From a virus: a DNA stretch of 64,000 bases. Below, piece by piece: positions 7,386 through 18,992 of the stretch. The position numbers were made by a program, and so were the translations under genes. Below the pieces are notes generated by a model. It had not been told where the DNA came from, did no database searches, and worked only from the letters and a program-made list of their open reading frames with translations. Position 1 is the stretch's first letter. Each line of letters starts with the position of its first letter. The stretch covers positions 1 through 64,000 of the IMG/VR virus record IMGVR_UViG_3300019487_000028. One strand, 5' to 3'.

Positions 7386-7396
7386 GATCGAATCGC

Positions 7397-7495
7397 GGCG
7401 AGGCGTGGCAAGGCTTGGCGAGGCGTGGCTCGGCGTGGCAAGGCAAGGGACGTACCCTCGGGGAGTCGGCGCGAGCCGATGATAGACCGAGGGGG
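7397..7495 (+). repeat. GGCNN array plus hairpin element, copy 1
   Basis: Ten GGC triplets spaced exactly five bases (7397 to 7442) end in a GGG at 7447, then the invariant GGGACGTACC and a two-stem hairpin. The outer stem is CCCTCGG with CCGAGGG; the inner stem TCGGC/GCCGA is closed by a GCGA tetraloop. It begins 12 bases after a stop codon. The outer 3' strand contains GAGGGGG just ahead of an ATG at 7498, so the stem could mask a ribosome site in this copy. Confidence 0.85.
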
Positions 7496-7524
7496 TTATG
7501 GATTTGAGAGAGAGAGAGTATGTG

Positions 7525-8091
7525 ATGAGTAACGACTCCAAGAAGTACGCGGTACGGTTCGAGGGCAACAAGCCGATCCTGTTCGACCGGTACGCCGGAG
7601 ACAACAAGACGAAGCTTCCGGCGCAGGACAAGTTCTACTTTGGTCCTGACGGCAAGACTCTGGTGATCCCGGCGTTCAACTTGAATTCAATGTTATCCGC
7701 AGAGAACACCAAGTCTGTATGCAAGCTCCTGATGGGCCGGAGCGGACGACAGGTCGGTCAGGCCCTGGGGTCGAACCTGGAGATCACGCCGGCCGACATC
7801 CCGCTGCTGGGGGAGGGCGACAAGCCCCTCGTCTGGGCCGGGAAGTTCGATGGTCAGTTCGGAGTCCGGCACGACGTAGCCAGAGTAAAGAACGGAGTCC
7901 CCGTCCCCAAGGAGCGGCCGTTCGTCAGGCTTCCGTGGGCGATCGACTTCGAGATCGGCTGGACCAAGCACCCCGACGTCTCCTACGACACACTGAAGAA
8001 CGTCTTCGAGCTGGCCCAGAAGATCGGCCTGGGGACGTTCCGGCCATTCTTCGGGACTTTCGTACTGGTCAAATTCAAGGAGATTTCGTAA
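7525..8091 (+). CDS. Conserved-looking phage protein, unknown function
   Basis: 188 aa from ATG 7525 (upstream GAGAGAGAG as ribosome site); an in-frame ATG at 7498 behind GAGGGGG is an alternative. It is globular and beta-rich, with a C-terminal ending IGLGTFRPFFGTFVLVKF, a Gly/Phe-rich pattern reminiscent of the last strand of RAMP/Cas7-like folds, but this is only a resemblance. It is flanked on both sides by GGCNN repeat copies. Confidence 0.6.
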   Translation: MSNDSKKYAVRFEGNKPILFDRYAGDNKTKLPAQDKFYFGPDGKTLVIPAFNLNSMLSAENTKSVCKLLMGRSGRQVGQALGSNLEITPADIPLLGEGDKPLVWAGKFDGQFGVRHDVARVKNGVPVPKERPFVRLPWAIDFEIGWTKHPDVSYDTLKNVFELAQKIGLGTFRPFFGTFVLVKFKEIS

Positions 8092-8095
8092 CCGC

Positions 8096-8140
8096 GGCAT
8101 TGCGCGGCTTGGCTCGGCGAGGATTGGCAAGGCAAAGGGA
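8096..8140 (+). repeat. GGCNN array, truncated copy without hairpin
   Basis: Eight in-register triplets (GGC, TGC, GGC x3, GGA, GGC x2) starting four bases after the stop of the upstream gene. The terminal GGG is shifted by one base, and the GGGACGTACC core and hairpin are absent. Confidence 0.7.
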
Positions 8141-8183
8141 GGTTCGGCTATGAAGTGGGCGGTGTGGGCTGTGGGCAGCGATC

Positions 8184-8462
8184 TTGTTGACGCAGAACTT
8201 GTCTTTCACCCTGGTCAGCAGGGCCAGGAACTCCGGTAGCTACGCGTGGCACGCGGTGGCGGCGGTCGGCTCCAACGGGGTGTGGATCCTGAGTCAATTT
8301 TTCCTAATCGAAAGTATCGTGTCGGCCATGAAGGCGGCCACGCTCTGGCCTGCCGTCGGGCTCGGTGCGTTCTACACGACCTTCACGGTGCTGGGGTCTC
8401 TGCTCGGGCACTACGTGGCCATCCGGTACATCGAGAAGGGTCGGAGGAAGGTCGGCGCGTGA
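8184..8462 (+). CDS. Small two-helix membrane protein (holin candidate)
   Basis: 92 aa from a TTG start; no convincing ribosome site, so the start is uncertain. Two hydrophobic segments (about residues 25-48 and 55-78) are followed by a basic cytoplasmic tail EKGRRKVGA. This is the size and topology of class II holins, but there is no lysin next to it. The end overlaps the next GTG start. Confidence 0.5.
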   Translation: MLTQNLSFTLVSRARNSGSYAWHAVAAVGSNGVWILSQFFLIESIVSAMKAATLWPAVGLGAFYTTFTVLGSLLGHYVAIRYIEKGRRKVGA

Positions 8463-8722
8463 AGAAGATCCGGCTGCGGCGCGTGACGGCTCCACACTAC
8501 GTTGTCGAGGGGATGGTTGAGAGCCGCTCCGCACGCCGACTGCTCTCTCAGTGTGGGGATGCCACGGACGCGATCGTAGCTACTCGTAGCGGTAGGCTAG
8601 TGGGCTTTGTCCGATGGTTCGACGAAGACGGGGAGGCGGTCTCTGCCGGAACGTGGGTAGACCCGAAGCTCAGACGCCGGGGTCTGGCGAAGCGCATGTG
8701 GCGATGCGCCACGTTGAGTTGA
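8459..8722 (+). CDS. GNAT-type acetyltransferase, apparently frameshifted
   Basis: 87 aa from a GTG start. It carries the GNAT core: VGFVRWFD strand, AGTWVDPKLRRRGLAKRMW with the acetyl-CoA loop R/Q-x-x-G-x-A. The frame stops at 8722, but the next frame continues from about 8703 to 8808 with HVELMQLVTCTKSGLALATTVQ, which looks like the missing C-terminal strands. The gene is probably broken by a single-base indel, or is read through a shift. Confidence 0.6.
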   Translation: MKKIRLRRVTAPHYVVEGMVESRSARRLLSQCGDATDAIVATRSGRLVGFVRWFDEDGEAVSAGTWVDPKLRRRGLAKRMWRCATLS

Positions 8723-8808
8723 TGCAGCTAGTAACCTGCACCAAGAGCGGACTCGCACTGGCCACGACCGTGCAAGAGATGCATGTGGGACGGGTGGTTA
8801 TTTCATGA
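8703..8808 (+). pseudogene. Displaced C-terminal part of the GNAT gene
   Basis: The frame beginning MRHVELMQLVTCTKSG and ending VGRVVIS carries the expected beta5-alpha4-beta6 continuation of the GNAT at 8459-8722 in another frame. It has no ribosome site of its own. Confidence 0.45.
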
Positions 8809-8841
8809 AACAACTTCGTCCGACAAGACAACCGGTGAGCA

Positions 8842-9078
8842 TTGAACGACGCTGAAGAAGAGAACCTCCAGGGCTGGGTGGCGATGTGCTCCCGGGGCTA
8901 CCCCGGGCTGATCCTGGGGAACACCCGGCAGTCCGTGACCTACCCGGACGGGAACACCGGGACGGCCTGGACCGGGATCCACCTCGACCCGGACATCTTC
9001 GGTCAGCCGTGGTCCAGCCGGAACCCGAAGCTGATGTACAGGGCGTACAGTCCGACTCGGGCAGCAGAACGTTTTTGA
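8842..9078 (+). CDS. Hypothetical protein, 78 aa
   Basis: TTG start at 8842. Aromatic, Gly-rich sequence (SRGYPGLILGNTRQSV, YPDGNTGTAWTGIH) with no recognised domain. It is followed after 31 bases by a complete GGCNN element. Confidence 0.45.
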   Translation: MNDAEEENLQGWVAMCSRGYPGLILGNTRQSVTYPDGNTGTAWTGIHLDPDIFGQPWSSRNPKLMYRAYSPTRAAERF

Positions 9079-9109
9079 ACAGGGTGGCAGAACAAGTTTT
9101 CGTAACCGC

Positions 9110-9227
9110 GGCAGTGCACGGCGTGGCGAGGCACGGCGCGGCGAGGCACGGCACGGCACGGCACGGCAAGGCAAGGGACGTACCCTCGGGGAGTCGGTCC
9201 GACGCGGGACTGATTATTGACCGAGGG
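9110..9227 (+). repeat. GGCNN array plus hairpin element, copy 2
   Basis: Thirteen units in 5-nt register (one is TGC) from 9110 to 9170, then GGG at 9175 and the GGGACGTACC core. The inner stem sequence differs from other copies (TCGGTCC with GGACTGA) yet pairs over seven bases, and the outer stem CCCTCGG/CCGAGGG is intact, so pairing rather than sequence is conserved. Confidence 0.85.
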
Positions 9228-9255
9228 AAACTAGGTTCTTGACGGGAGGGATGAG

Positions 9256-10094: not shown

Positions 10095-10115
10095 AGAGAA
10101 GAGTAAACTGGAGGC

Positions 10116-10289
10116 ATGGCCTCCCTCTTCGACGAGAGAGTCATGTACCTAATGAGGGGAGACATCGCGCGGGTCGAGCTGTGCCAGAGACTCGTGACGG
10201 CGCTGGACGAGATCGAAGACTTGAAAAAGTTGATTGACAGCATCTCTCCGGCGGTATATGATCAGCCGTCGTCGGGGGGGCTGAGGTAA
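10116..10289 (+). CDS. Small acidic helical protein overlapping tRNA-Trp
   Basis: 57 aa, ATG preceded by GGAGGC. Mostly helical (RVELCQRLVTALDEIEDLKKLI). Its last five codons lie inside the 5' end of the tRNA-Trp gene. Unknown function. Confidence 0.5.
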   Translation: MASLFDERVMYLMRGDIARVELCQRLVTALDEIEDLKKLIDSISPAVYDQPSSGGLR

Positions 10290-10348
10290 CGGCAGCCGGA
10301 GGGCCTCCAAATCCCTCAGTCTGGGTTCGACCCCCAGGTCCCCCGCCA
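10275..10348 (+). tRNA. tRNA-Trp (CCA)
   Basis: Acceptor GGGGGGC pairs GTCCCCC, loop CTCCAAA gives anticodon CCA at 10307-10309, T-arm CTGGG/CCCAG with TTCGACC, encoded CCA end. C31-T39 is unpaired. First gene of the tRNA island. Confidence 0.9.
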
Positions 10349-10369
10349 ACTGGAAAGACTCAATCGCGT

Positions 10370-10481
10370 AGCGAGGCAGAGCCAGGCGGGGCGGGGCGAG
10401 GCGTGGCTAGGCGAGGCATGGCCCGGCAAGGCAAGGGACGTACCTTCGGGGAGTCGGCGCGGCCGATGATAGACCGAGGGG
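10370..10481 (+). repeat. GGCNN array plus hairpin element, copy 3
   Basis: Thirteen units in register from 10370 (AGC at 10370 and 10380, otherwise GGC) to 10430, then GGG at 10435, core and hairpin. Inner stem TCGGC/GCCGA with a three-base loop; outer stem CCTTCGG/CCGAGGG keeps pairing through a T-G wobble. Starts 22 bases after tRNA-Trp. Confidence 0.85.
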
Positions 10482-10611
10482 TCGTGGCTCGGCGGTATTG
10501 AATCTGCCGAGAGCCGGCCGGAAGCTGGAGCCGGCACCAGGCGTGGCCGGGGGACATCTTTGAAAACTGAGCGAAGAAGAAAAGGCGGCGCTAGTGTGGA
10601 GCGCTGCTCAA
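10482..10611 (+). other. Spacer with hairpins, no gene
   Basis: Contains a perfect stem CTCGGC/GCCGAG around 10488-10511 and a GCCGGC-bounded hairpin near 10513-10534. No open frame with a ribosome site and no tRNA fold. Confidence 0.5.
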
Positions 10612-10704
10612 GGGCGTCACGGGACAAAGGAGTCCCACCTGGCTGTAAACCAGGCGCCCCCTGATGGGGGATCACGGCAGGTTCGATCCCTGCGGCGCCC
10701 ACCA
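10612..10704 (+). tRNA. tRNA-Tyr (GTA)
   Basis: Acceptor GGGCGTC/GGCGCCC, anticodon stem CCTGG/CCAGG with loop CTGTAAA, long class II variable arm (GCCCCCTGATGGGGG), T-arm GCAGG/CCTGC, encoded CCA. Confidence 0.92.
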
Positions 10705-10710
10705 ACTAAT

Positions 10711-10785
10711 GCGACGCGGGCCGGGCGGTAAGGCTCCAGTCTTCCAAACTGGGAACGCGGGGTTCGACTCCCCGGCGTCGCTCCA
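10711..10785 (+). tRNA. tRNA-Gly (TCC)
   Basis: Acceptor GCGACGC/GCGTCGC, anticodon stem CCAGT/ACTGG with loop CTTCCAA, T-arm CGGGG/CCCCG, discriminator T and encoded CCA. Confidence 0.92.
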
Positions 10786-10880
10786 AGCAGCCCATCCAGC
10801 AGGGCTGAGAGGCGCCTGGCCCGGGCCAGGAACCGCGCGCAGGTGCGGGCTCGTCCTAGGGCGAGTGCCGCTGGCTACTC
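10786..10880 (+). other. Structured inter-tRNA spacer
   Basis: Carries the 16-base palindrome CCTGGCCCGGGCCAGG and hairpin CTCGTCC/GGGCGAG, with flanks CCAGC/GCTGG, so the segment folds strongly. It lacks a T-loop and CCA; a decayed tRNA-Pro-like gene is possible but not supported. Confidence 0.4.
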
Positions 10881-10955
10881 GCTCTCGTAGGATCAACAGC
10901 AGACCGTCGCCTTGGTAAGGCGAAAGTCCGGGGGCAGGACCCGGTGAGAGCTCCA
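10881..10955 (+). tRNA. tRNA-Thr (GGT), divergent T-loop
   Basis: Acceptor GCTCTCG/TGAGAGC, anticodon stem TCGCC/GGCGA with loop TTGGTAA, T-stem CCGGG/CCCGG but loop GGCAGGA instead of TTCGANN, discriminator T and encoded CCA. The cloverleaf is complete; the missing TTC makes activity uncertain. Confidence 0.7.
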
Positions 10956-10960
10956 CTAAA

Positions 10961-11036
10961 CCACCGCAGGTGCTAGCGGCAGCACGTCGCGCTCTTAACG
11001 CGAGAGGTCGGGGTTCGAGCCCCCGGCGGTGGACCA
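10961..11036 (+). tRNA. tRNA-Lys (CTT)
   Basis: Acceptor CCACCGC/GCGGTGG, anticodon stem TCGCG/CGCGA with loop CTCTTAA, normal T-arm with TTCGAGC, encoded CCA. Confidence 0.92.
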
Positions 11037-11037
11037 T

Positions 11038-11114
11038 CTGCTCGTGGTGGAATGGCAGACACCCTGGTCCGAGAAGCCAGGCTAATAGGGGTTCGAGTCC
11101 CCCCGGGCAGACCA
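11038..11114 (+). tRNA. tRNA-Leu (GAG), short variable arm, C33
   Basis: Acceptor CTGCTCG/CGGGCAG, anticodon stem CTGGT/GCCAG with loop CCGAGAA, so position 33 is C rather than U. The D-arm GGTGGAATGGCAGAC is Leu-like, but the variable region is only six bases. Encoded CCA. Confidence 0.75.
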
Positions 11115-11116
11115 TC

Positions 11117-11195
11117 CCCCAGGTACTCCAATCAGGCAGAGAGCGTCGGCTCAGACCCGGCGAAGGTGGGCGTTCGAGTCGCCCCCTGGGGACCA
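11117..11195 (+). tRNA. tRNA-Leu (CAG), short variable arm
   Basis: Acceptor CCCCAGG/CCTGGGG, anticodon stem GTCGG/CCGGC with loop CTCAGAC, variable region GAAGGT, T-arm GGGCG/CGCCC, encoded CCA. Confidence 0.88.
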
Positions 11196-11211
11196 AATTC
11201 AGAAACGAGAG

Positions 11212-11472
11212 ATGAGAATGGACCCGACGAAGGACATGGACCTCGAGAGCCTATACGACGAGTACGTGTACGAGTGTGCATACTGCTGGCTGACCAGGGA
11301 CAAACACCCGGACAGGGAGTACGCGTCGTACTCCAGAGACAGGGACATCGTGTCCGCGGCCGCCAGGGAGCACCGCCGCAAGACGGGACACCCGGTCCAC
11401 GTGTACCTAAAGAAGTGGTTGTACGAGGAGTCGGGCAGGTCCGACGCCAGAGAAGAGCGGGGCTGTCGCTAG
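11212..11472 (+). CDS. Hypothetical acidic/aromatic protein, 86 aa
   Basis: ATG 17 bases after tRNA-Leu(CAG). Contains YVYECAYCW (CxxC) near residue 20 and many Asp, Glu and Tyr, then a basic helix AAAREHRRKTGH. No family recognised. Confidence 0.5.
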   Translation: MRMDPTKDMDLESLYDEYVYECAYCWLTRDKHPDREYASYSRDRDIVSAAAREHRRKTGHPVHVYLKKWLYEESGRSDAREERGCR

Positions 11473-11610
11473 TTAAAAGTCGAGGGCGCTGTACCGGACC
11501 CACGGCGCTACACCTTTAAACGGAAGGGCAGGAGTTAATTGAGACGAACGGCGAGCTGGCCTTCGACTTCCTGGGGCTGTTGGTCCGGCGCTCGCTGTTA
11601 ACTAAGACGC
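11473..11610 (+). other. Spacer in tRNA island, possible 36-aa frame
   Basis: No tRNA fold seen. A protein-like frame (NGELAFDFLGLLVRRSLL) runs 11538-11648 behind GGCAGGAG but would need an ATT start and would overlap the next tRNA, so it is not called as a gene. Confidence 0.3.
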
Positions 11611-11688
11611 GCGCGGGTGACGGTAACTGGCAAACCTCACTGCCTTAGAAGCAGTGGTCTGTGGGTTCGACTCCCACTCCGCGCACCA
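11611..11688 (+). tRNA. tRNA-Leu (TAG), short variable arm
   Basis: Acceptor GCGCGGG/TCCGCGC, anticodon stem ACTGC/GCAGT with loop CTTAGAA, five-base variable region, T-arm GTGGG/CCCAC, encoded CCA. Confidence 0.9.
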
Positions 11689-11690
11689 CT

Positions 11691-11767
11691 CGCCGCCTAG
11701 CCCAGATGGCAGAGGCCCCGTCTTAAACACGGGTCAAGCGTGGGTTCGACTCCCACGGCGGCGACCA
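11691..11767 (+). tRNA. tRNA-Leu (TAA), short variable arm
   Basis: Acceptor CGCCGCC/GGCGGCG, anticodon stem CCCGT/ACGGG with loop CTTAAAC, variable region TCAAGC, T-arm GTGGG/CCCAC, encoded CCA. Confidence 0.9.
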
Positions 11768-11769
11768 TA

Positions 11770-11845
11770 CCATCCCTGGCGCAAATGGCAGACGCGCACG
11801 GCTCAATCCCGTGAGATCAGGGTTCGAATCCCTGGGGATGGACCA
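11770..11845 (+). tRNA. tRNA-Leu (CAA), short variable arm
   Basis: Acceptor CCATCCC/GGGATGG, anticodon stem CACGG/CCGTG with loop CTCAATC, variable region AGAT, T-arm CAGGG/CCCTG, encoded CCA. Confidence 0.9.
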
Positions 11846-11852
11846 CTCTGGA

Positions 11853-11931
11853 GGGGACGTAGATCCTGCGGGCTAGGATCACTGCGTTGTCAGCGCAGAG
11901 GGCGCGGGTTCGAGTCCCGTCGTCCCCGCCA
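11853..11931 (+). tRNA. tRNA-Asp (GTC)
   Basis: Acceptor GGGGACG/CGTCCCC, anticodon stem CTGCG/CGCAG with loop TTGTCAG, T-arm with TTCGAGT, discriminator G and encoded CCA. Confidence 0.92.
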
Positions 11932-11950
11932 AAGTGGTACCGACTGTACT

Positions 11951-12025
11951 GGGCGGCTAGTGTTAACGAGAGCACGAGTGGTTTGCACCCACTAGGACGG
12001 AGTTTGAATCTCCGGCTGTCCACCA
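11951..12025 (+). tRNA. tRNA-Ala (TGC)
   Basis: Acceptor GGGCGGC/GCTGTCC (with G-T pairs), anticodon stem AGTGG/CCACT with loop TTTGCAC, T-arm CGGAG/CTCCG with TTTGAAT, encoded CCA. Confidence 0.9.
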
Positions 12026-12249
12026 TTTCTTCACCGCGGCCGAGCGACCTGGCCGGTGCGGCTCCAAGGCAGGTGCGCAATTCCCGCCAGGAGGCCGCCG
12101 CTCCTTTCTCCACTCCTGCGAGGTGGAGGTCGCGTTCGCAGCCGGACCCGAGACCTGGGCGGAGAGAGCTGCCGCGGGGAGTGAGAAACCCCCAACGCTT
12201 ACCTGCCGCCGCCTGTCGCAACCGCCGGGTGAGGGCCCCGGCTTTCTAA
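12026..12249 (+). other. Structured spacer in tRNA island
   Basis: 224 bases, GC-rich, with stem CTCCAC/GTGGAG near 12110-12130 and a CGGC/GCCG hairpin whose loop reads TTTCTAA (12239-12253), like an Arg(TCT) anticodon arm but without T-arm or acceptor. No gene supported. Confidence 0.4.
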
Positions 12250-12323
12250 GCCGCCGTACGCTAATGGAAGGCGACCGTCCTCTCAAGGCGGTGGTCCGAG
12301 TTCGATCCTCGGCGGCGGTACCA
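12250..12323 (+). tRNA. tRNA-Glu (CTC)
   Basis: Acceptor GCCGCCG/CGGCGGT, anticodon stem CCGTC/GGCGG with loop CTCTCAA, T-arm CCGAG/CTCGG, encoded CCA. Confidence 0.9.
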
Positions 12324-12325
12324 GA

Positions 12326-12408
12326 CGCGGACGAGTGGGCACGGACACATAAACCACGTCAGCCTCATAAGCTGAAGATACCGGGTTCGACTCCCGGGTC
12401 CGCTCCCA
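12326..12408 (+). tRNA. tRNA-Met (CAT), C1-T72 mismatch, initiator-like
   Basis: Acceptor CGCGGAC against GTCCGCT leaves C1 opposite T72 unpaired, as in bacterial initiators (C1-A72). Anticodon stem TCAGC/GCTGA with loop CTCATAA. The D-loop is enlarged (about 15 bases between GTGG and CCAC). T-arm CCGGG/CCCGG, encoded CCA. The initiator role is inferred; the anticodon stem lacks the three G-C pairs usual for initiators. Confidence 0.75.
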
Positions 12409-12409
12409 T

Positions 12410-12487
12410 CGCAGGGAAGTTCCTTGGTAGGAACGCAGGTCTCATAAGCCTGGCGCTAGTAGGGTTCGAATCCCACCCCTGCGACCA
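12410..12487 (+). tRNA. tRNA with CAT anticodon (elongator Met or Ile2)
   Basis: Acceptor CGCAGGG/CCCTGCG, anticodon stem CAGGT/GCCTG with loop CTCATAA, D-arm GTTCCTTGGTAGGAAC, encoded CCA. The T-stem has only three clean pairs. Met and lysidine-type Ile2 cannot be separated from sequence alone. Confidence 0.85.
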
Positions 12488-12490
12488 ACG

Positions 12491-12564
12491 AGCCGGTTCG
12501 TTCAAAGGAAGGACGGCGGTCCTACAAACCGCTCATGGGGGTTCGATTCCCTCACCGGCTACCA
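12491..12564 (+). tRNA. tRNA-Val (TAC), C33
   Basis: Acceptor AGCCGGT/ACCGGCT, anticodon stem GCGGT/ACCGC with loop CCTACAA, so U33 is replaced by C. T-arm GGGGG/CCCTC, encoded CCA. Confidence 0.85.
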
Positions 12565-12720
12565 CCACAACTCGGTCAGAGAGAAGCCGGCGGGCAGGCC
12601 GGAGGCGTCGCGATGCCAAGCGCGGCGTTCTGCTCGCCGGCTGCTCTGTGGCCGAGACGTCGGGGGTCGACACCCGATTAGCCACGAGGAGCCCGGAGAT
12701 GGTCAAGCCTCCGGGCCGCT
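12565..12720 (+). ncRNA. Long hairpin in tRNA island (unassigned RNA)
   Basis: A 12-base arm GCCGGCGGGCAG (about 12583) pairs with CTGCTCGCCGGC (about 12628) with one G-T pair, and inside it CGTCGCG pairs with CGCGGCG, giving a rod-like hairpin. Downstream GGGGGTCGACACCC resembles a T-arm. It does not fold as a standard tRNA; a Gln(CTG)-like loop (TTCTGCT) is present but lies inside the long stem. Confidence 0.35.
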
Positions 12721-12794
12721 GGGTCGCGAGTGTTGAGGAAGCATGGCAGGTTGTGTCCCTGCCGGGTGGGGTTCGAGTCCCCAGCGACCCTCCA
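12721..12794 (+). tRNA. tRNA-His (GTG)
   Basis: Acceptor GGGTCGC/GCGACCC, anticodon stem GCAGG/CCTGC with loop TTGTGTC, T-arm TGGGG/CCCCA. The base before position 1 is T and the discriminator is T, so the usual G-1:C73 His identity pair is not encoded. Encoded CCA. Confidence 0.88.
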
Positions 12795-12795
12795 T

Positions 12796-12869
12796 TGGGG
12801 AGAAGTGTTACGGTAGCATCCCGGCGTCGGAAGCCGGTGGCGAGGGTCCGACTCCCTCCTCTCCAACCA
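12796..12869 (+). tRNA. tRNA-Pro (CGG)
   Basis: Acceptor TGGGGAG/CTCTCCA, anticodon stem CCGGC/GCCGG with loop GTCGGAA, T-arm GAGGG/CCCTC with TCCGACT, encoded CCA. Confidence 0.9.
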
Positions 12870-12886
12870 AAATCTCAGTCTGCATC

Positions 12887-12960
12887 CGGGGATTGATGTA
12901 ACGGAAGCATCCGGCGTTTGGAACGCCGTCGCGGGAGTTCGACTCTCCTGTCCCCGACCA
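12887..12960 (+). tRNA. tRNA-Pro (TGG)
   Basis: Acceptor CGGGGAT/GTCCCCG, anticodon stem CGGCG/CGCCG with loop TTTGGAA, T-arm GGGAG/CTCCT, encoded CCA. Confidence 0.92.
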
Positions 12961-12961
12961 T

Positions 12962-13036
12962 CGGGCCTTAGCTCAACGGCAGAGCACTCGGCTGGGGGCC
13001 GAGGAAATGCGAGTTCGAGTCTCGTGGGCCCGACCA
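12962..13036 (+). tRNA. tRNA-Pro (GGG)
   Basis: Acceptor CGGGCCT/GGGCCCG, anticodon stem CTCGG/CCGAG with loop CTGGGGG, classical D-arm AGCTCAACGGCAGAGC, encoded CCA. Confidence 0.93.
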
Positions 13037-13287
13037 ATAACCAACGACGCACTGAGCGGTGGAGCCGTGGCGGGTGGCTCCAGACTGAAAGCTGCGAACA
13101 CGGGGAGCGCTTTACCAGTCAAAGGGCGCGAGGATCCGGACCGCGGCCCCGCCCTGCTTCATTCCTAGGTCAATGAAGTGAGACGACCTCGTGCGGTACG
13201 TATGGCCTGCGGGAGTGAGAATCTCCCGGAGGTGCAGGAATCATTCTCCTGAGTTCTCGGCCAGCGTGTAGAAACCGCACACCTTAC
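13037..13287 (+). other. Structured spacer in tRNA island
   Basis: 251 bases without a clear gene. Contains GGAGCC/GGCTCC near 13072-13090, a perfect CTTCATT/AATGAAG hairpin near 13160-13181, CGGGAG/CTCCCG near 13210-13230 and CAGGA/TCCTG with a seven-base loop near 13235-13252. GCCGTGG and CCGCGGC could pair as an acceptor around a Phe-like GAA loop, but no T-loop or CCA is present. Confidence 0.4.
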
Positions 13288-13363
13288 TGCGGTGTAGCAC
13301 AACGGAAGTGCGGTCGGCTCTGAACCGACGTCAATGGGGGTTCGACTCCCTCCGCCGCAGCCA
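13288..13363 (+). tRNA. tRNA-Gln (CTG)
   Basis: Acceptor TGCGGTG/CGCCGCA with U1-A72 as is common in Gln tRNAs, anticodon stem GTCGG/CCGAC with loop CTCTGAA, T-arm GGGGG/CCCTC, encoded CCA. Confidence 0.92.
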
Positions 13364-13366
13364 AAC

Positions 13367-13440
13367 TGGGGGATCATTCAATGGTAGGATGCGCCGCTGT
13401 TACCGGCGTCATGGCGGTTCGAGTCCGCCGCCCCCAGCCA
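13367..13440 (+). tRNA. tRNA-Asn (GTT)
   Basis: Acceptor TGGGGGA/GCCCCCA (A7-G66 mismatch), anticodon stem CGCCG/CGGCG with loop CTGTTAC, T-arm GGCGG/CCGCC, encoded CCA. Confidence 0.92.
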
Positions 13441-13467
13441 ACTGCCAGAGGTTTTCAATCGTACCGT

Positions 13468-13566
13468 GGCGGGGCGGGGCGCGGCTCGGCGTAGCTCGGC
13501 AAGGCGCGGCACGGCAAGGGACGTACCTTCGGGGAGTCGGCCGCACTCCGATGATAGACCGGGGGG
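13468..13566 (+). repeat. GGCNN array plus hairpin element, copy 4
   Basis: Ten units in register from 13468 to 13513 (one AGC at 13493), GGG at 13518, then core and hairpin. Inner stem TCGG/CCGA with a larger loop; outer stem CCTTCGG/CCGGGGG. Begins 28 bases after tRNA-Asn. Confidence 0.85.
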
Positions 13567-13578
13567 TCGGAAATTCGG

Positions 13579-13654
13579 GGGACCGTAGCAAAAGATGGGT
13601 TGCGCCCGCCTTTTAAGCGGAACAACGTCGGTTCGATTCCGACCGGTCCCACCA
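13579..13654 (+). tRNA. tRNA-Lys (TTT)
   Basis: Acceptor GGGACCG/CGGTCCC, anticodon arm CCGC/GCGG with loop CTTTTAA (outermost pair C-A), T-arm GTCGG/CCGAC, encoded CCA. Confidence 0.9.
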
Positions 13655-13662
13655 TACGGATT

Positions 13663-13736
13663 CCACGGATCGTCCAAAGGTAGGACGCGCGGCCGATAAC
13701 CGCGCAATGTGAGTTCGATTCTCGCTCCGTGGACCA
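13663..13736 (+). tRNA. tRNA-Ile (GAT), C33
   Basis: Acceptor CCACGGA/TCCGTGG, anticodon stem CGCGG/CCGCG with loop CCGATAA, so position 33 is C. T-arm GTGAG/CTCGC, encoded CCA. Confidence 0.87.
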
Positions 13737-13739
13737 ACC

Positions 13740-13812
13740 GCCGGTCAGGCCGAGGTGGCCAAACTGCCCCGTAAGCAGCAGGGCGTGGGTTCGACTCCCC
13801 GGGCCGGCTCCA
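13740..13812 (+). tRNA. tRNA-Thr (CGT), C33
   Basis: Acceptor GCCGGTC/GGCCGGC, anticodon stem ACTGC/GCAGC with loop CCCGTAA (C33). The T-stem has only three firm pairs around TTCGACT; discriminator T and encoded CCA. Confidence 0.8.
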
Positions 13813-13827
13813 CAAAATAGGAGCTAA

Positions 13828-14178
13828 GTGGCGATCAGTATCAAAGTCTTTGGTGGCACCGCGTCTTCCGACGAGAAGTCGCTCTGCCTCTCGTGCAAGA
13901 GGGCGACGATTATCCGGGGCCAAGCTCTCGACGAAGAGATCATCGAGTGCGGCGCTCTGTCCGGCGGTGGGGACCGGCTGTCCGGCGGTGGGGACCGGAT
14001 CAGGTTCAAGGTCACCAGCTGCAACGCTTACAGAGACAGCGCGCAGCCCTCCCTCCAGGACATGCAGGAGTTGGCGTGGGTCCTGAAGACCGACAACAGG
14101 ACCAGGACGATCGGGTTCGTCCCGGCAAAGAAGCTGAGCTCCGCCGAGCGGTATTCCTTGACGGAATATCAGGACTGA
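13828..14178 (+). CDS. Cysteine-containing protein with internal tandem duplication
   Basis: 116 aa, GTG start behind TAGGAGCTAA. CLSC near residue 20 plus later Cys at about 41 and 65 suggest zinc. A 21-base unit is repeated exactly in tandem at about 13957-13998, giving LSGGGDR twice. No family recognised. Confidence 0.55.
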   Translation: MAISIKVFGGTASSDEKSLCLSCKRATIIRGQALDEEIIECGALSGGGDRLSGGGDRIRFKVTSCNAYRDSAQPSLQDMQELAWVLKTDNRTRTIGFVPAKKLSSAERYSLTEYQD

Positions 14179-14197
14179 AACGCGAGAGGGGGGAGGA

Positions 14198-14392
14198 ATG
14201 AGTAACTGCGAGAGGGCCAACGGGGACACGAGCTTCATCGGCCGCTTTGGGGGGACGAGCTGTACCTGCCCGGTAGGCTCTCAGGCGCCGGTGTGCCAGT
14301 GGTGTGCGGAGGTCATCACCGCTCTTGACGAGATCAGACGGCAGGCGTGGAACGAAGGCTGGGACGCGAGAAGGAGGGCCACGAAGTGGTGA
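14198..14392 (+). CDS. Small Cys-rich protein, 64 aa
   Basis: ATG behind GGGAGGA. Five cysteines (TSCTCPVGS, VCQWCAEV) and an amphipathic C-terminal helix (ITALDEIRRQAW). The end overlaps the next GTG start (TGGTGA). Confidence 0.5.
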   Translation: MSNCERANGDTSFIGRFGGTSCTCPVGSQAPVCQWCAEVITALDEIRRQAWNEGWDARRRATKW

Positions 14393-14829
14393 ACGCCCAA
14401 GTGACCAAGCAGCAGCTCGACGCCTACCGGAAGATGGACGTGTGGGCGATGCTGCTGAGTAGCAGCCCACTCATTTACTTGTGTACCCGAGCCCAGGTAC
14501 TGTGGTTCGATCGCAAAATTTCGGGTGATGAGTTCAAGTACGTGCTCGGGGTCGTGGAGAAGGCCCGGCCCACCGAGGCCGAGCAACCCAGAATGGTGCG
14601 CTTCTTCACATCTCCCAGTGTGGGCGTCCCGCTCACCGCGCCGCAAACTGTGGGTCCTCGAACAGATCGCCAAGGCCGGACAGGAGGCGATCCAGAACTG
14701 AAGTCCGCAGTGCTCCTCAAGCTAACCCAGTGGAAGCGCTTCGCTGAAGACGAAGAGGGCCCGGTGCGACACCGGGGGGGGGCACCACTACGGGGGCGCA
14801 ACGGTATCGACCGGGGCGCTTCGGCGTGA
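14389..14829 (+). CDS. Hypothetical protein, frame uncertain after residue 75
   Basis: GTG start coupled to the previous gene. The first 75 aa (KQQLDAYRKMDVWAML, then ISGDEFKYVLGVVEKARP) look coding. After about 14618 another frame gives a protein-like ending KLWVLEQIAKAGQEAIQN and stops at 14701, while the original frame resumes a plausible KSAVLLKLTQWKRFAEDEE and runs on into the tmRNA. An indel, a programmed shift or two small overlapping genes are possible. Confidence 0.4.
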   Translation: MNAQVTKQQLDAYRKMDVWAMLLSSSPLIYLCTRAQVLWFDRKISGDEFKYVLGVVEKARPTEAEQPRMVRFFTSPSVGVPLTAPQTVGPRTDRQGRTGGDPELKSAVLLKLTQWKRFAEDEEGPVRHRGGAPLRGRNGIDRGASA

Positions 14830-15095
14830 CGTGCAGGCGGAGGGGCTCCGAGTCTCCCTCCTAAATCTCGACCGGAAACCTCAAGCGCAGACTACGCTCT
14901 GCCGCAGGCCGCCTAGGCGGCCTCGTCGCCCAGGTTCCTCCCTCGCTAGTGCCTGGAGCGGCGTCACGACGGCGAGGACCAGTACCCCAACGCCGTGAAG
15001 GGGTGACGCTCACGGCCAACTGACGCACACAAGCCTGTGCAACTCGTCGCGTCGTTCGTGTCGGGACGCGGGTTCGACTCCCGCCGCCTCCACCA
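14792..15095 (+). ncRNA. ssrA: tmRNA (transfer-messenger RNA)
   Basis: The 5' end GGGGGCGCAACGGTATCGACC is replaced here in description by its halves: acceptor GGGGGCG pairs CGCCTCC at the 3' end, followed by A and an encoded CCA. The 3' tRNA-like part has a T-arm GCGGG/CCCGC with TTCGACT. The internal frame starts at GCA (14887) and ends at TAG (14914-14916), giving the tag ADYALPQAA. The stop codon lies in a perfect GGCCGCC/GGCGGCC hairpin, as usual for tmRNA helix 5. Its role is to rescue stalled ribosomes and tag products; in this island it complements the tRNA set. It is about 300 nt, shorter than most bacterial copies. Confidence 0.88.
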
Positions 15096-15115
15096 CTTCT
15101 CAAGGGGGACAAGAC

Positions 15116-15187
15116 GCCACCCGGTCACGGGACCGGCGGAGGTTTGTATCTTCAGCCAGCGGGGTTCGACTCCCCGGGGTGGCTCCA
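15116..15187 (+). tRNA. tRNA-Thr (TGT)
   Basis: Acceptor GCCACCC/GGGTGGC, short D-arm GGTC/GACC, anticodon arm GAGG/CTTC with loop TTTGTAT, T-arm CGGGG/CCCCG, discriminator T and encoded CCA. Compact (72 nt). Confidence 0.78.
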
Positions 15188-15192
15188 GAAAC

Positions 15193-15266
15193 GGGGTCGT
15201 ATGCTAACGGTAGGCGGGCTGCCTTTCACGCAGTTGATGCGGGTTCGACTCCCGCCGACCCCACCA
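15193..15266 (+). tRNA. tRNA-Glu (TTC)
   Basis: Acceptor GGGGTCG/CGACCCC, anticodon stem GCTGC/GCAGT with loop CTTTCAC, T-arm GCGGG/CCCGC, encoded CCA. Confidence 0.92.
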
Positions 15267-15277
15267 AACAGGAGAGC

Positions 15278-15451
15278 ATGCAGATGGCGTGGGCACACAA
15301 GAGGAAGGGAAAGAAGCGCAAGCGCGAACTCCGCATCGTCCGCGAGCTTCACCGCCGCAGCGGTCCTAAAGCGGGCCACGGGTGGGCCGCCCGCAGGGCT
15401 GCCCGAAGAGCCAACGTTTCTGCTTCGAAGCGGAAGCGCCGGAAGGTCTAG
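15278..15451 (+). CDS. Very basic small protein, 57 aa
   Basis: ATG behind AGGAGAGC, 11 bases after tRNA-Glu. About 40 percent Lys/Arg (HKRKGKKRKREL, RRAARRANVSASKRKRRKV). A nucleic-acid or ribosome-binding role is likely from charge alone. Confidence 0.5.
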   Translation: MQMAWAHKRKGKKRKRELRIVRELHRRSGPKAGHGWAARRAARRANVSASKRKRRKV

Positions 15452-15463
15452 GGACTCTCTCTG

Positions 15464-15646
15464 ATGGGGAAACACGTCACTCGGGCAGACGTTGTGCTGG
15501 ACCTCTACCACAGGGGCTACTCCGTCACTGAGATCGCGAAGGAGTTGTGCTGGAAAGGCCCCCGGTCGGAAATCAGAGCCATAATCGAAGAGTCAGGATC
15601 GGATCCGGACGATTCCCCGAGTACCGGCCAGGTCTCCGAAACCTGA
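15464..15646 (+). CDS. Small helix-turn-helix protein overlapping tRNA-Arg
   Basis: 60 aa. ADVVLDLYHRGYSVTEIAKELCWKG has the helix-turn-helix pattern of terminase-small or transposase-like DNA-binding proteins. Its last ten codons lie inside the tRNA-Arg(CCG) gene on the same strand. Confidence 0.5.
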   Translation: MGKHVTRADVVLDLYHRGYSVTEIAKELCWKGPRSEIRAIIEESGSDPDDSPSTGQVSET

Positions 15647-15690
15647 CGCCGTAACTGGAGATGCGGGTTCGAGTCCCGCCTCGGGGTCCA
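15615..15690 (+). tRNA. tRNA-Arg (CCG)
   Basis: Acceptor CCCCGAG/CTCGGGG, anticodon stem CAGGT/ACCTG with loop CTCCGAA, T-arm GCGGG/CCCGC, discriminator T and encoded CCA. Overlaps the upstream HTH gene by 32 bases. Confidence 0.92.
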
Positions 15691-15693
15691 CAA

Positions 15694-15767
15694 AGCCGCG
15701 TGGTCCAACGGAAAGGCGTAGGGCTACGAACCCTGAGATGGCAGTTCGACTCTGCCCGCGGCTTCCA
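15694..15767 (+). tRNA. tRNA-Arg (ACG)
   Basis: Acceptor AGCCGCG/CGCGGCT, anticodon stem TAGGG/CCCTG with loop CTACGAA, T-arm GGCAG/CTGCC, encoded CCA. A34 would need host TadA deamination to read CGC and CGA. Confidence 0.92.
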
Positions 15768-15769
15768 GA

Positions 15770-15844
15770 GCTCCACATTCGCGGCGGACGCGAACCGGTT
15801 TCCTAAACCGGCAAAGCGGGGTTCGACTCCCCGGTGGGGCTCCA
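15770..15844 (+). tRNA. tRNA-Arg (CCT)
   Basis: Acceptor GCTCCAC/GTGGGGC, anticodon stem CCGGT/ACCGG with loop TTCCTAA, T-arm CGGGG/CCCCG, encoded CCA. Reads AGG, a codon used very often in the phage genes here. Confidence 0.92.
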
Positions 15845-15858
15845 TCTTCATCCAACGT

Positions 15859-15967
15859 GGCCCGGCGAGGCGGGGCGCGGCGCGGCCCGGCTGGGCTAGG
15901 CGAGGCGCGGCAAGGCAAGGGACGTACCCTCGGGGAGTCGGCCGCACGCCGATGATAGACCGGGGGG
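15859..15967 (+). repeat. GGCNN array plus hairpin element, copy 5
   Basis: Twelve perfect GGC units in register (15859-15914), GGG at 15919, core and hairpin. Inner stem TCGGC/GCCGA with loop CGCAC; outer stem CCCTCGG/CCGGGGG. Begins 15 bases after tRNA-Arg(CCT). Confidence 0.87.
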
Positions 15968-15977
15968 TCGTGACGGA

Positions 15978-16051
15978 GGCCCGCTGGTGGTGGACACCGC
16001 CGGCACTTCTAATGCCGGACCATCTCGGTTCGACTCCGGGGCGGGCTTCCA
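15978..16051 (+). tRNA. tRNA-Arg (TCT)
   Basis: Acceptor GGCCCGC/GCGGGCT, anticodon stem CGGCA/TGCCG with loop CTTCTAA, T-arm CTCGG/CCGGG, encoded CCA. Confidence 0.92.
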
Positions 16052-16058
16052 GTTTCAT

Positions 16059-16147
16059 CCACGGTGGGAGGACGGTTCTCAGGGCGGCCTATAACCGCTC
16101 CCCCAGATCGGGGCCAGAACGGGGTTCGACTCCCCGACCGTGGTCCA
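16059..16147 (+). tRNA. Class II tRNA with TAT anticodon, C33 (nominal Ile)
   Basis: Acceptor CCACGGT/ACCGTGG, anticodon stem GGCGG/CCGCT with loop CCTATAA (C33, anticodon TAT), T-arm CGGGG/CCCCG, encoded CCA. Between anticodon and T stems is a true variable arm with CCCC/GGGG stem. Ile tRNAs are class I, so the amino acid charged (Ile, or Ser/Leu/Tyr-type recognition) is open. Confidence 0.75.
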
Positions 16148-16261
16148 TTGTTTGGGAGGGAGACAAAACGTGGTCGAGTTTGGTTCTGAAGGCTACACCG
16201 CAAGGCTGTCTGGATGGCGCTGAAGGATGGGCCTCCTGCTAGCAGCGGTGGGGAGGTCGGA

Positions 16262-16675
16262 GTGAAGGTGGCAGTAGTAGGTTCGAGGAACTTCAAGTAT
16301 CTGGACCTCGTGAAGGACTACATCGACTCCCTACCGGACAAGACGGTGGTGGTCACGGGAGGGGCTCGCGGAGTCGATGCTGCGGCCGAGGATGCAGCCA
16401 GGAAGCGGGGCCTGGAGGTGGTCGTGGTGACTCCCGACTACTCTTCGTATGGCCACATCGCCACGAAGGTCAGGAACTCGGTCATAGCCAGGATGGCCGA
16501 CAAGGTGACGGCCTTCTGGGACGGGCTCTCGGGAGGTACGGCCAACACGCTAGCGTGGGCCGCAGTTTGGGGACGGCCAGTTGAGGTCTTCATGAAACGC
16601 AGATGGCGCAACACGCTCCACTCAACATGGGGACCGACGGATGCCCGAGGAGTGGGCAGTACGAAGGGGGGTTGA
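16262..16675 (+). CDS. SLOG-fold (DprA/YspA-like, DUF2493-type) protein
   Basis: 137 aa, GTG start behind GGGAGGTC. VAVVGSRNF at the start, VVVTGGARGVDAAAEDAARKRG in the middle and VTAFWDGLSGGTANTLAWA near the end are the nucleotide-binding loops of SLOG/Rossmann-like proteins, which bind nucleotides or NAD derivatives and feature in DNA uptake, signalling and phage defence. The last 20 residues come from a duplicated DNA segment read out of its usual frame (see 16678-16959). Confidence 0.75.
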   Translation: MKVAVVGSRNFKYLDLVKDYIDSLPDKTVVVTGGARGVDAAAEDAARKRGLEVVVVTPDYSSYGHIATKVRNSVIARMADKVTAFWDGLSGGTANTLAWAAVWGRPVEVFMKRRWRNTLHSTWGPTDARGVGSTKGG

Positions 16676-16677
16676 TA

Positions 16678-16959
16678 ATGAGCAAGGCGAGACAGAAACT
16701 CGTTCGTAAAGCCCTGAGGGCAAAAGAGAGCGAGTGTCGCTCCTGGAGGTACTACGTCGTTGTCGAGGAAGGCGGGCATCCCCTCAACATGGGGATCGAC
16801 GGATGCCTGTGGAGAGGAATGGGCAGTGAAGCCTGCTCAAATATGTTTTTCAGTAGCAGGCGCGCCGCCAGTTCGGCCATCACGAGGACGGTGAGGCGGG
16901 GCCTCGCCTGGACTCGGGACAACAAGCTCAGGGTCGTGGAGAAGCTGGAGCGGTTCTGA
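16678..16959 (+). CDS. Hypothetical basic protein containing a duplicated segment
   Basis: 93 aa from ATG 16678 behind GAAGGGGGG; an in-frame ATG at 16603 would extend it into the SLOG gene. PLNMGIDGCLWRGMGS (about 16781-16828) repeats DNA also found at about 16618-16660, in the same frame as the 16603 extension. Otherwise basic, with RRAASSAITRTVRR. Unknown function. Confidence 0.5.
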   Translation: MSKARQKLVRKALRAKESECRSWRYYVVVEEGGHPLNMGIDGCLWRGMGSEACSNMFFSSRRAASSAITRTVRRGLAWTRDNKLRVVEKLERF

Positions 16960-16966
16960 CCACACT

Positions 16967-17036
16967 GGAGGGTGCGCAGTTGGACAGCGGGTCGCCTGCT
17001 AAGCGGTCTAACGGGGTTCGATTCCCCGACCCTCCG
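16967..17036 (+). tRNA. tRNA-Ser-like (GCT), short arm, no encoded CCA
   Basis: Acceptor GGAGGGT/ACCCTCC with discriminator G, anticodon stem GTCGC/GCGGT with loop CTGCTAA, variable region only CTAA, T-arm CGGGG/CCCCG. The 3' end is followed by AAC, not CCA, unlike the other genes in the island. Short-armed Ser tRNA is unusual in bacteria; it may be decayed. Confidence 0.65.
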
Positions 17037-17063
17037 AACCTGAGAAGCTGGAGACAAAAGTAC

Positions 17064-17137
17064 GGAGAGTTTGCTTTGGGACAAGGCTGGGATTCGAATC
17101 CCTGGCTAGGCCGGTTCGAATCCGGCACTCTCCGCCA
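17064..17137 (+). tRNA. tRNA, Ser (CGA) or Arg (TCG)
   Basis: Acceptor GGAGAGT/ACTCTCC with discriminator G (Ser-like), T-arm GCCGG/CCGGC, encoded CCA. The anticodon arm is the palindrome GGGATTCGAATCCC, so the loop can be set as TTCGAAT (anticodon CGA) or ATTCGAA (TCG). The short variable region favours Arg, the acceptor favours Ser. Confidence 0.7.
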
Positions 17138-17162
17138 AACTAACGAGGGAGAGAATATAGCC

Positions 17163-17762
17163 ATGACGGAAGAGACTGGGTCCGCACTTAGCTTCAACGA
17201 GTTCTCGGGCTTTGAGGAGTTCCCGAAGATCGCGAGGCTGTCGAGGGAGATCGTCGTAACCGAGAAGATCGACGGGACGAACGCCCAGGTCGCAGTAGAT
17301 CATGACGGGACCGTCCGGGCCGGGAGCAGGAACCGCTGGATCTCCCCCGAGAACGACAACTTCGGCTTCGCCCGGTGGGTCAAGGAAAACGAAGCCTTGC
17401 TGCGCGAGACCCTCGGGGTGGGACGACACTACGGGGAGTGGTTCGGGGCTGGGATCCAGAGAGGCTACGGACTCAAAGAGAAGCGCTTCGCACTATTCAA
17501 CGTGAGCCGCTGGGCCGACGTCAAGCCCCCGCTCTACAGCGTGCCGATCCTCTACAGGGGTCCCTTCAGCACGGACGCGATTGACGACGAACTGGCCTGC
17601 CTGGCTGAGCTCGGGTCTGAGGCGGCATCCGGGTTCAAGCCGGCCGAGGGGGTCGTGATCTACCACGTGGCCGGGAACGTCTACTTCAAGAAGACCCTCG
17701 TCGGGGACGATTCGCCCAAGTCGGCCCCAGACAGAGTCCTCCTGGGGGTGACCAAGGCATGA
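17163..17762 (+). CDS. RNA ligase, Rnl2-like (AMP-dependent)
   Basis: 199 aa; ATG 17163 lies behind GGGAGAGAATATAGCC and just after a tRNA. All nucleotidyltransferase motifs are present in order: I EKIDG (adenylated Lys35), SRNRW, III GEWFG (91-95), IIIa FALFNV, IV AEGVVIY (E162) and V YFKKT (K176/K177). It joins RNA ends through an AMP intermediate. Compact size lacks the extra C-terminal domain of T4 Rnl2. Position inside a tRNA island suggests repair of cleaved tRNAs, as phages do against host anticodon nucleases; no kinase partner is obvious, though a metallophosphoesterase is at 6184. Confidence 0.85.
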   Translation: MTEETGSALSFNEFSGFEEFPKIARLSREIVVTEKIDGTNAQVAVDHDGTVRAGSRNRWISPENDNFGFARWVKENEALLRETLGVGRHYGEWFGAGIQRGYGLKEKRFALFNVSRWADVKPPLYSVPILYRGPFSTDAIDDELACLAELGSEAASGFKPAEGVVIYHVAGNVYFKKTLVGDDSPKSAPDRVLLGVTKA

Positions 17763-18019
17763 AGGTCCGGGTCAAGTGCTCTTGCGGCTGGTCCGGAGTC
17801 CGCAAGGACAGCCCGTCAGAGTGCTGCTGTTACGACGAGTGGGCCGTAGTCTGCACCGGGATGAGTCCTGGCCCCGGCTGCCCGCGCCCGTGGCTGTGCG
17901 CACCGTGCCCGAAGTGCGGCCTGAAGCCTTGGCGACAGAGGACAAGAGCCGAGAAGGCGGAAGATGCCAGAGTGGACGCCTTGCTCGCCCGCGAGCTGGC
18001 CACACAAGCCGGAAACTGA
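17759..18019 (+). CDS. Cysteine-rich zinc protein
   Basis: 86 aa, coupled to the ligase by ATGA. Cysteines cluster as CSCGW, CCCY, then CAPCPKCG, enough for two zinc sites. Charged helical C-terminus. May work with the ligase; function unknown. Confidence 0.55.
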   Translation: MKVRVKCSCGWSGVRKDSPSECCCYDEWAVVCTGMSPGPGCPRPWLCAPCPKCGLKPWRQRTRAEKAEDARVDALLARELATQAGN

Positions 18020-18068
18020 CGGACGGGACCGAGAGCCTCTGGGCAGGGTTCGATGATAGAGTGGTGAC

Positions 18069-18581
18069 ATGGCAGAACGTCGGTGGAAAACTCTGGGCGG
18101 GGAGCCGGTCCAAGACATAGCACGGTGGGTCCGCGAGGCGTCCAGCGGTGGTCAGGTGGTCCACGTGGGTACCGACTCGCTACAGACCGGACGCTGGACC
18201 CAGTTCGTGACAGTCATAGTGATACATACTCCGGGCAAGGGGGGGCGCGTTTCTTACTCCAGGGAGGCCGTCACCAGGATCGTCTCGCTCCGAGAGAGGC
18301 TGCTGAAGGAAGTCTGGCGCTCGGTCGAGATAGCGCTGACCCTGGAGGCCGGGCCGAACCCGATGTCGATCCACATCGACGCGTCTCCTGAGGAAAAGAA
18401 TCTTTCAAGCAAGTACCTCCAAGAGCTTGCGGGGATGGTCATGGGCAACGGTTTCAAGGCCGTAGTGAAACCAGACGCGTGGGCGGCCAGTCACTCCGCA
18501 GACTGGGTCGTCCGACACAAGGGGAAGATTCCGCGGGACGGTCCGCAAGCCGCTTTGAAGGCGGCGATGGGGGCGCGGTGA
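18069..18581 (+). CDS. YkuK-type RNase H-like protein (DUF458)
   Basis: 170 aa. VHVGTDSLQ near residue 32 supplies the first Asp, IHIDASPEE near 101 the second, and DAWAASHSADWVVR near 137 the third acidic site plus a His, as in the RNase H-fold YkuK family. Putative nuclease or RNA-processing factor in the tRNA island. Its last 20 codons lie inside tRNA-Ser(TGA). Confidence 0.75.
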   Translation: MAERRWKTLGGEPVQDIARWVREASSGGQVVHVGTDSLQTGRWTQFVTVIVIHTPGKGGRVSYSREAVTRIVSLRERLLKEVWRSVEIALTLEAGPNPMSIHIDASPEEKNLSSKYLQELAGMVMGNGFKAVVKPDAWAASHSADWVVRHKGKIPRDGPQAALKAAMGAR

Positions 18582-18614
18582 GCGCCAGGGGTTCGACTCC
18601 TCAATCTTCCTCCA
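18523..18614 (+). tRNA. tRNA-Ser (TGA), overlapping CDS
   Basis: Acceptor GGAAGAT/ATCTTCC, anticodon stem GCCGC/GCGGC with loop TTTGAAG, class II variable arm, T-arm with TTCGACT, discriminator T and encoded CCA. The first 59 bases also encode the C-terminus of the YkuK-like protein. Confidence 0.88.
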
Positions 18615-18618
18615 CCTC

Positions 18619-18707
18619 GGAGGCGAGGCGAACGGAAAGCAGCGGCGTTGGAAGCGCCGTGAGGCCCGAAGAGGGCCGTGCGGGTTCGAGTCCCGCCGCC
18701 TCCGCCA
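18619..18707 (+). tRNA. tRNA-Ser (GGA)
   Basis: Acceptor GGAGGCG/CGCCTCC, anticodon stem CGGCG/CGCCG with loop TTGGAAG, long variable arm GGCCC/GGGCC, T-arm GCGGG/CCCGC, discriminator G and encoded CCA. Confidence 0.93.
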
Positions 18708-18721
18708 CTCCTACAGAGGCA

Positions 18722-18853
18722 CTTTGTGCTGACTGCGGAGGAGTGCCGGTCGTCCGACTGGTGACCATGTCGGCGCTCTGGAGGTCTCCGGCGAAGATTT
18801 TGCCGCTCTGCGAAGATTGTGCGTTCGGCACGGGGGAGTTGATCGTCGTCTAG
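18722..18853 (+). CDS. Possible small zinc-ribbon protein, start unclear
   Basis: A frame ending at 18853 encodes CADCGG and LCEDCAFG, two CxxC knuckles 28 residues apart. There is no ATG/GTG/TTG before the first pair; GTG 18743 would lose it. It may start at a rare codon or be a remnant. Confidence 0.35.
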   Translation, partial: LCADCGGVPVVRLVTMSALWRSPAKILPLCEDCAFGTGELIVV

Positions 18854-18868
18854 GATTTCGGAAAATGT

Positions 18869-18972
18869 GGCGCGGCGCGGCGCGGCGCGGCGAGGCGCGG
18901 CATGGCCCGGCAAGGCAAGGCAAGGGACGTACCGCTCGGGGAGTCGGCGCGAGCCGATGATAGACCGAGGGG
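18869..18972 (+). repeat. GGCNN array plus hairpin element, copy 6
   Basis: Eleven perfect GGC units in register (18869-18919), GGG at 18924, core with one inserted base (ACCGCTCGG), hairpin as in copy 1 with GCGA tetraloop. Starts 16 bases after the preceding stop codon. Confidence 0.87.
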
Positions 18973-18992
18973 TCGTGGTTGACGGCAGGTGG

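Follow-up and report, generated by a model that had tools for sequence, protein, structure and literature searches.

The first 64,000 bases of the viral record IMGVR_UViG_3300019487_000028 from IMG/VR (hereafter the window; the whole record has 76,323 bases) contain repeated arrays of GGCNN units, each array followed by a constant core and a two-stem hairpin. These arrays are very probably the vrRNA guide genes of a phage-encoded VIPR system, with positions 7525-8091 encoding its Vipr protein. VIPR was described in a 2026 preprint (PMC13142463) as a RAMP-type Vipr protein, with an RRM core, a G-loop, and a thumb, which binds vrRNAs. According to the same preprint, a vrRNA consists of 9-16 YNNGG repeats with a conserved GGY and a hypervariable NN, followed by an invariant structured 3′ tail; the NN letters read double-stranded DNA, successive dinucleotides being separated by one skipped base in the target, and the fixed GGY stays unpaired. 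The initial annotation of the window had presented the repeat as a form not described before. This claim was dropped, as the form matches a known element, namely the vrRNA of VIPR systems, and arrays of this type are common among viral contigs. Apart from targets and the accessory gene, all sequence features tested place the arrays in the VIPR guide family, a kind known since 2026. The divergent Vipr and the scattered layout of the guides are unusual here.

The core GGGACGTACC was found at seven exact sites in the window, and each was preceded by units in strict 5-nt register (Table 1). Nine other core-like sites in the window carry one mismatch each, which is about the number expected by chance. 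GGC was present in 74 of the 79 window units, and AGC or TGC in the other five. Two further complete copies lie at 70372 and 75792 of the record, beyond the window (copies 8 and 9); over the nine complete copies, GGC was held in 95 of 103 units, and the final NN of the array was AA in all nine. The copy at 8096 has eight units, one of which is GGATT; after these the register slips by one base, and the core is missing. The description given by the initial annotation, with seven complete arrays bearing a conserved core and two-stem tail, one truncated copy, and a fixed GGC beside variable NN letters, was thus confirmed. The YNNGG unit of PMC13142463 also counts the dinucleotide ahead of the first GGC, and each copy then gains one NN. 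Several arrays are crossed by mechanical open reading frames (ORFs), but the transfer RNA (tRNA) genes are crossed by such ORFs too, and the array is very probably RNA and not a coding repeat, as had been proposed. The seventh array is flanked by ORFs 57017-57658 and 55378-56757, all on the minus strand, and with its first NN it overlaps the end of ORF 57017-57658. A sister contig, IMGVR_UViG_3300019458_000038, was 99.8-99.9% identical over the three stretches compared; against the window's seven vrRNAs, it differs by one NN change (vrRNA 1) and one change of GGC to GGG (vrRNA 5).

Table 1. Predicted vrRNA genes, decayed copy, and predicted vipr gene in the window.
Feature	Position	Strand	Description
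vrRNA 1	7392..7494	+	10 units (7397-7446) and preceding NN; core 7447; two-stem tail; directly 5′ of vipr start
vipr	7525..8091	+	188 aa, possible earlier start 7498; predicted RAMP/Cas7-like Vipr homologue; directly 3′ of vrRNA 1
Decayed vrRNA copy	8091..8141	+	without core or tail; directly 3′ of vipr
vrRNA 2	9105..9227	+	13 units; core 9175; inner stem longer, one compensatory pair
vrRNA 3	10365..10483	+	13 units; core 10435; begins about 17 positions past tRNA-Trp end
vrRNA 4	13463..13569	+	10 units; core 13518; flanked by tRNA-Asn (about 23 positions) and tRNA-Lys (about 10)
vrRNA 5	15854..15970	+	12 units; core 15919; flanked by two tRNA-Arg genes (about 10 and about 8 positions)
vrRNA 6	18864..18977	+	11 units; core 18924; tRNA-Cys about 15 positions past its end
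vrRNA 7	56917..57020	-	10 units; core 56965; tail with compensatory A-U pair

Six exact in-register GGC units gave 31 overlapping matches from six of the seven arrays, compared with none in 100 dinucleotide-preserving shuffles; the array at 13468 (vrRNA 4), which is interrupted by AGC, gave no six-unit match. In IMG/VR, seven GGCNN units followed by GGG were found in at least 120 stretches and a permuted control pattern in 9. Random GC-rich, low-complexity sequence without a conserved core, the alternative considered in the initial annotation, was ruled out by the shuffles and the control pattern, and the core is exact in all nine complete copies. Among the matches listed, tails repeat within a contig and differ between contigs. 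A gene family whose members start like TLTGTxPLLMH adjoins many of the arrays. With the family profile, members were detected in 68 of 118 array loci and in none of the 9 control-pattern loci; 35 of the other 85 array loci is the fairer figure, as 33 of the 68 had fed the profile. The stretches were limited in length, which makes the absence of Vipr there weak evidence. Furthermore, one match to phrog_4652 was obtained in 25 of 26 array records and in none of 14 control genomes, although the 26 include this phage and its sister, and the gene had already been seen in most of them.

The tail of the nine aligned copies has an outer stem of 7 pairs and an inner stem of 6 pairs, and 98.3% of its cells are paired. 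Three pairs show compensatory changes on both sides, each in a single copy. The covariation score was 0.175, which was reached by 1 of 500 shuffles, and slid versions of the structure scored 0.013 to 0.073; the structure was drawn from the same nine sequences, which favours it in this comparison. The folding of whole copies was weaker evidence: z-scores ranged from -3.20 to +1.02 for the seven copies folded, and the hairpin was absent from the minimum-energy fold of the copy at 13468. The predicted two-stem hairpin with covariation was therefore supported by the aligned tails, and less clearly by the whole-copy folds. An Rfam scan of the window gave no family at gathering score apart from tRNA and transfer-messenger RNA (tmRNA). 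An exact core search of IMG/VR returned 8 stretches; three came from the sister contig, and the other five, with no array of at least 5 units and no Vipr within the stretch examined, were taken as chance. By this search, the core with its hairpin appears to be confined to this phage and its near-identical sister.

The protein next to vrRNA 1 matched phrog_4652 (annotation: function unknown) at E 1.9e-5, and all ten family members tested, including this one, matched it at E <=0.01. No Pfam match above cut-offs was obtained with family members. When a 34-member family profile including the window protein was compared with the PDB, the single sequence match at E <=1 was 36pp_D, "SUSP1 Vipr protein", at E 1.1e-51, and this match led to the VIPR preprint (PMC13142463). 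The AlphaFold model of the window Vipr had a pLDDT of 93.4. In the Foldseek search, 661 matches had E <=10, and all 50 of those listed were CRISPR effector chains. VIA-align superposed 164 residues on 6xn3_F from the Lactococcus lactis Csm complex (Z 13.6, root-mean-square deviation 3.7), and Z values of 12.2-13.0 were obtained for three entries named Csm3. The structure library extends to 2026-04-08, which may account for the absence of 36pp there. Moreover, the window Vipr contains a G-loop-like stretch, GLGTFRP..G, in which G168, R173, and G177 are invariant across the 34 members. The Csm3/Cas7-like overall fold of the model and this motif point to a RAMP fold. The window Vipr was 41-45% identical to the proteins of three loci, L117, L107, and L104, and 16-28% identical to the other 30 aligned members.

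Several results weigh against the assignment to VIPR. The window Vipr alone matched no PDB chain at E <=10 and no phage-collection record at E <=0.01, whereas the Vipr of a relative (L087) matched 129 such records, including Escherichia, Salmonella, Gordonia, and Mycobacterium phages; its membership is suggested by family profiles and the predicted fold. No vap gene was identified, although a vap accessory gene beside vipr is called typical (PMC13142463), and searches of the record for the GIY-YIG-type families PF13455 and PF01541 gave no match. No convincing target was obtained for five of nine guides in exact-letter scans, by which a diverged target would be missed. In addition, the scattered guides here differ from the clustered guides of other systems. 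Upstream of vipr, an ORF at 5968-7125 has an exonuclease match (phrog_7339). In three other loci, the start of vipr is overlapped by a gene of the GIY-YIG type (MUG113/T5orf172; L104:4396-4923, L107:9776-10225 on the minus strand, and L117:4422-5009), which is a candidate accessory nuclease.

For the target search, the five guides were used as exact 18- to 20-letter patterns with 1-nt skips in five viral and two genome scans. Two exact partial matches (L136 and L148), each of 21/28 letters over the whole guide, look like chance; the L136 match falls within an open frame whose wobble positions coincide with the skips, which is not the case for the L148 match. Against the phage genome itself, 1-nt-skip matching reached at best 17/24 letters (guide 9175) and 16/20 letters (guide 18924), and none was perfect. 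Furthermore, 307 array-like guides (at least 8 units, complexity-filtered) were compared with about 1.2 Mb of array loci at skips of 0-3. The lowest single E was 0.00025 at 1-nt skip, for a guide of L078 against L118, two loci whose Viprs start nearly alike. Below E 0.0025, there were 4 matches at 1-nt skip, compared with 0, 2, and 0 at skips of 0, 2, and 3. This excess was not counted as support, because the cut-off was picked after the list had been seen, the best match is worth about 0.08 over 307 guides, both skip-2 matches come from a single guide and two contigs that are related to each other, and a period of three could be favoured by codon structure. In the 307 arrays, purines are enriched and C is scarce at the first NN letter (A.295, C.147, G.371, T.187), and the second is even. 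The idea that NN corresponds to codon positions 1-2 of sense strands was dropped: the first letter is purine-rich, but TG exceeds CA, which is the opposite of coding sequence.

The five-nucleotide period also recalls TRAP, a ring-shaped RNA-binding protein whose sites comprise about 11 triplets with two bases between neighbours. The arrays could be sites for a protein of this kind in a cis-regulatory leader of downstream genes; the spacing and the unit number are similar, vrRNA 1 lies just 5′ of vipr, and many arrays elsewhere lie just 5′ of a possible start codon. However, the gene family that accompanies the arrays is RAMP/Vipr, copies here also sit between tRNA genes, and a variable NN beside a constant tail suits a guide RNA better, which makes TRAP-like sites extremely unlikely. 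It is slightly less improbable, but still very unlikely, that the copies are former guides which are now idle, a spread and decaying repeat with no present role. The copy at 8096 has clearly decayed, the sister contig has the change of GGC to GGG, and no target was found. On the other hand, the exact core in all complete copies, the GGC held in 95 of 103 units, and the paired tails with their compensatory changes argue against this, as does the vipr frame, which is open here and in the sister contig alike. Guide RNA genes with a Vipr protein are the preferred explanation.

The layout of these guides differs from that of the other systems compared. Strict arrays were placed in 33 records, of which 8 were dropped from the distance count (G012, with no phrog_4652 match, and seven not searched for phrog_4652). 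In the 23 other records with both parts, no strict array of the 44 was more than 1.3 kb from the Vipr match. The vipr gene of this phage is adjoined by vrRNA 1 and the decayed copy, but the distance to it is 2.3 to 67.7 kb for 6 of the 8 strict arrays, and 4 of 6 are distant in the sister contig. As the records are frequently incomplete and degenerate arrays escape the strict pattern, distant guides elsewhere could be missed. No description of scattered vrRNAs was found in the main text of PMC13142463, although its supplement may contain one.

Of the window's seven vrRNAs, two lie between tRNA genes (vrRNAs 4 and 5) and two beside one (vrRNAs 3 and 6); the distances in Table 1 depend on the tail ends, which were chosen by the analyst. 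In the last 16 kb of the record, which holds copies 8 and 9, no tRNA was found. The window region 10275-19411 is a cluster of tRNA genes, 33 by prediction, of which one lacks a clear anticodon; it also holds a tmRNA, and an RNA ligase gene lies inside it at 16980-17762. Elsewhere, the tRNA T-loop motif GTTCRANYC was found in 12 of 298 vrRNA tails from 6 contigs, in many cases within a hairpin resembling a T-arm, compared with 260 of 20,000 random stretches from the same loci. Such tails occur in L138 (Mycobacterium phage LittleE) at 2726-2815, 2861-2950, and 4316-4405, and also in L031, L087, L100, L104, and L121; Rfam gave no match in L138, L137, L104, L031, and L087. As a tentative explanation, and one that is rather doubtful, single guide genes scattered beside or between tRNA genes might be cut out by tRNA-processing enzymes and gained or moved singly like tRNA genes, and the T-arm-like tails elsewhere might be the same link in another form. 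Judging from the vrRNA positions relative to the tRNAs, such processing would free at most four of the nine copies.

With regard to the host, the evidence was divided: the terminase was nearest to those of Mycobacterium and Gordonia phages, at about 36% identity over a third of its length, and a virion protein to those of a Puniceispirillum phage and cyanophages, at about 35-37%. A TET-associated glycosyltransferase gene and two ParB-like genes are present in the window (2345-3244; 1280-2341; 4135-4743), and the former hints at modified phage DNA.

By analogy with the published system (PMC13142463), Vipr would bind the vrRNA, the GGC letters would stay unpaired, and the NN dinucleotides would pair with double-stranded DNA, skipping a single target base from one dinucleotide to the next, while the core and hairpin may serve as a constant handle. 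Each copy would be a separate guide, probably repressing genes of competing phages or satellites. This function is proposed from PMC13142463, where the natural targets in the two clades analysed were mostly satellites or prophages; no convincing target was found here for the five guides searched. From the layout, the single guide genes may be transcribed together with neighbouring genes or tRNAs, and some guide ends may be set by tRNA processing. The analysis links an odd-looking repeat to an RNA-guided system that was described very recently, and it would extend VIPR to include a divergent Vipr, encoded by a phage whose tRNA cluster is large. Moreover, the layout suggests that guides can be located away from the protein gene, and it raises the question of whether tRNA processing matures some phage guide RNAs.

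VIPR systems have been divided into types I-VII, and the tail of the SUSP1 clade has a pseudoknot (PMC13142463). Like the VIPR of Escherichia phage SUSP1 (PDB 36pp), the predicted system is phage-borne and has a RAMP-type vipr, GGY/NN pentamers (10-13 units here), a structured 3′ tail, and one guide adjoining vipr. Unlike in SUSP1, the guides are spread over about 68 kb, no vap gene was identified, the tail sequence was seen nowhere except in this phage and its sister, and the Vipr shares just 16-28% identity with the 30 aligned members that fall outside its small clade. The VIPR loci of the uncultivated phages L117, L107, and L104 share GGCNN arrays and the closest Viprs found. However, the strict arrays of L104 and L107 are 89 and 429 nt from vipr, and the GIY-YIG-type gene that overlaps the vipr start in all three loci was not found here. 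In comparison with Class 1 CRISPR systems (Cas7/Csm3 with crRNA), the predicted protein fold is similar, and the guide likewise consists of a variable part and a constant handle. In the predicted vrRNAs, the variable letters are instead broken by a fixed GGC every five bases, and each guide would be a separate gene.

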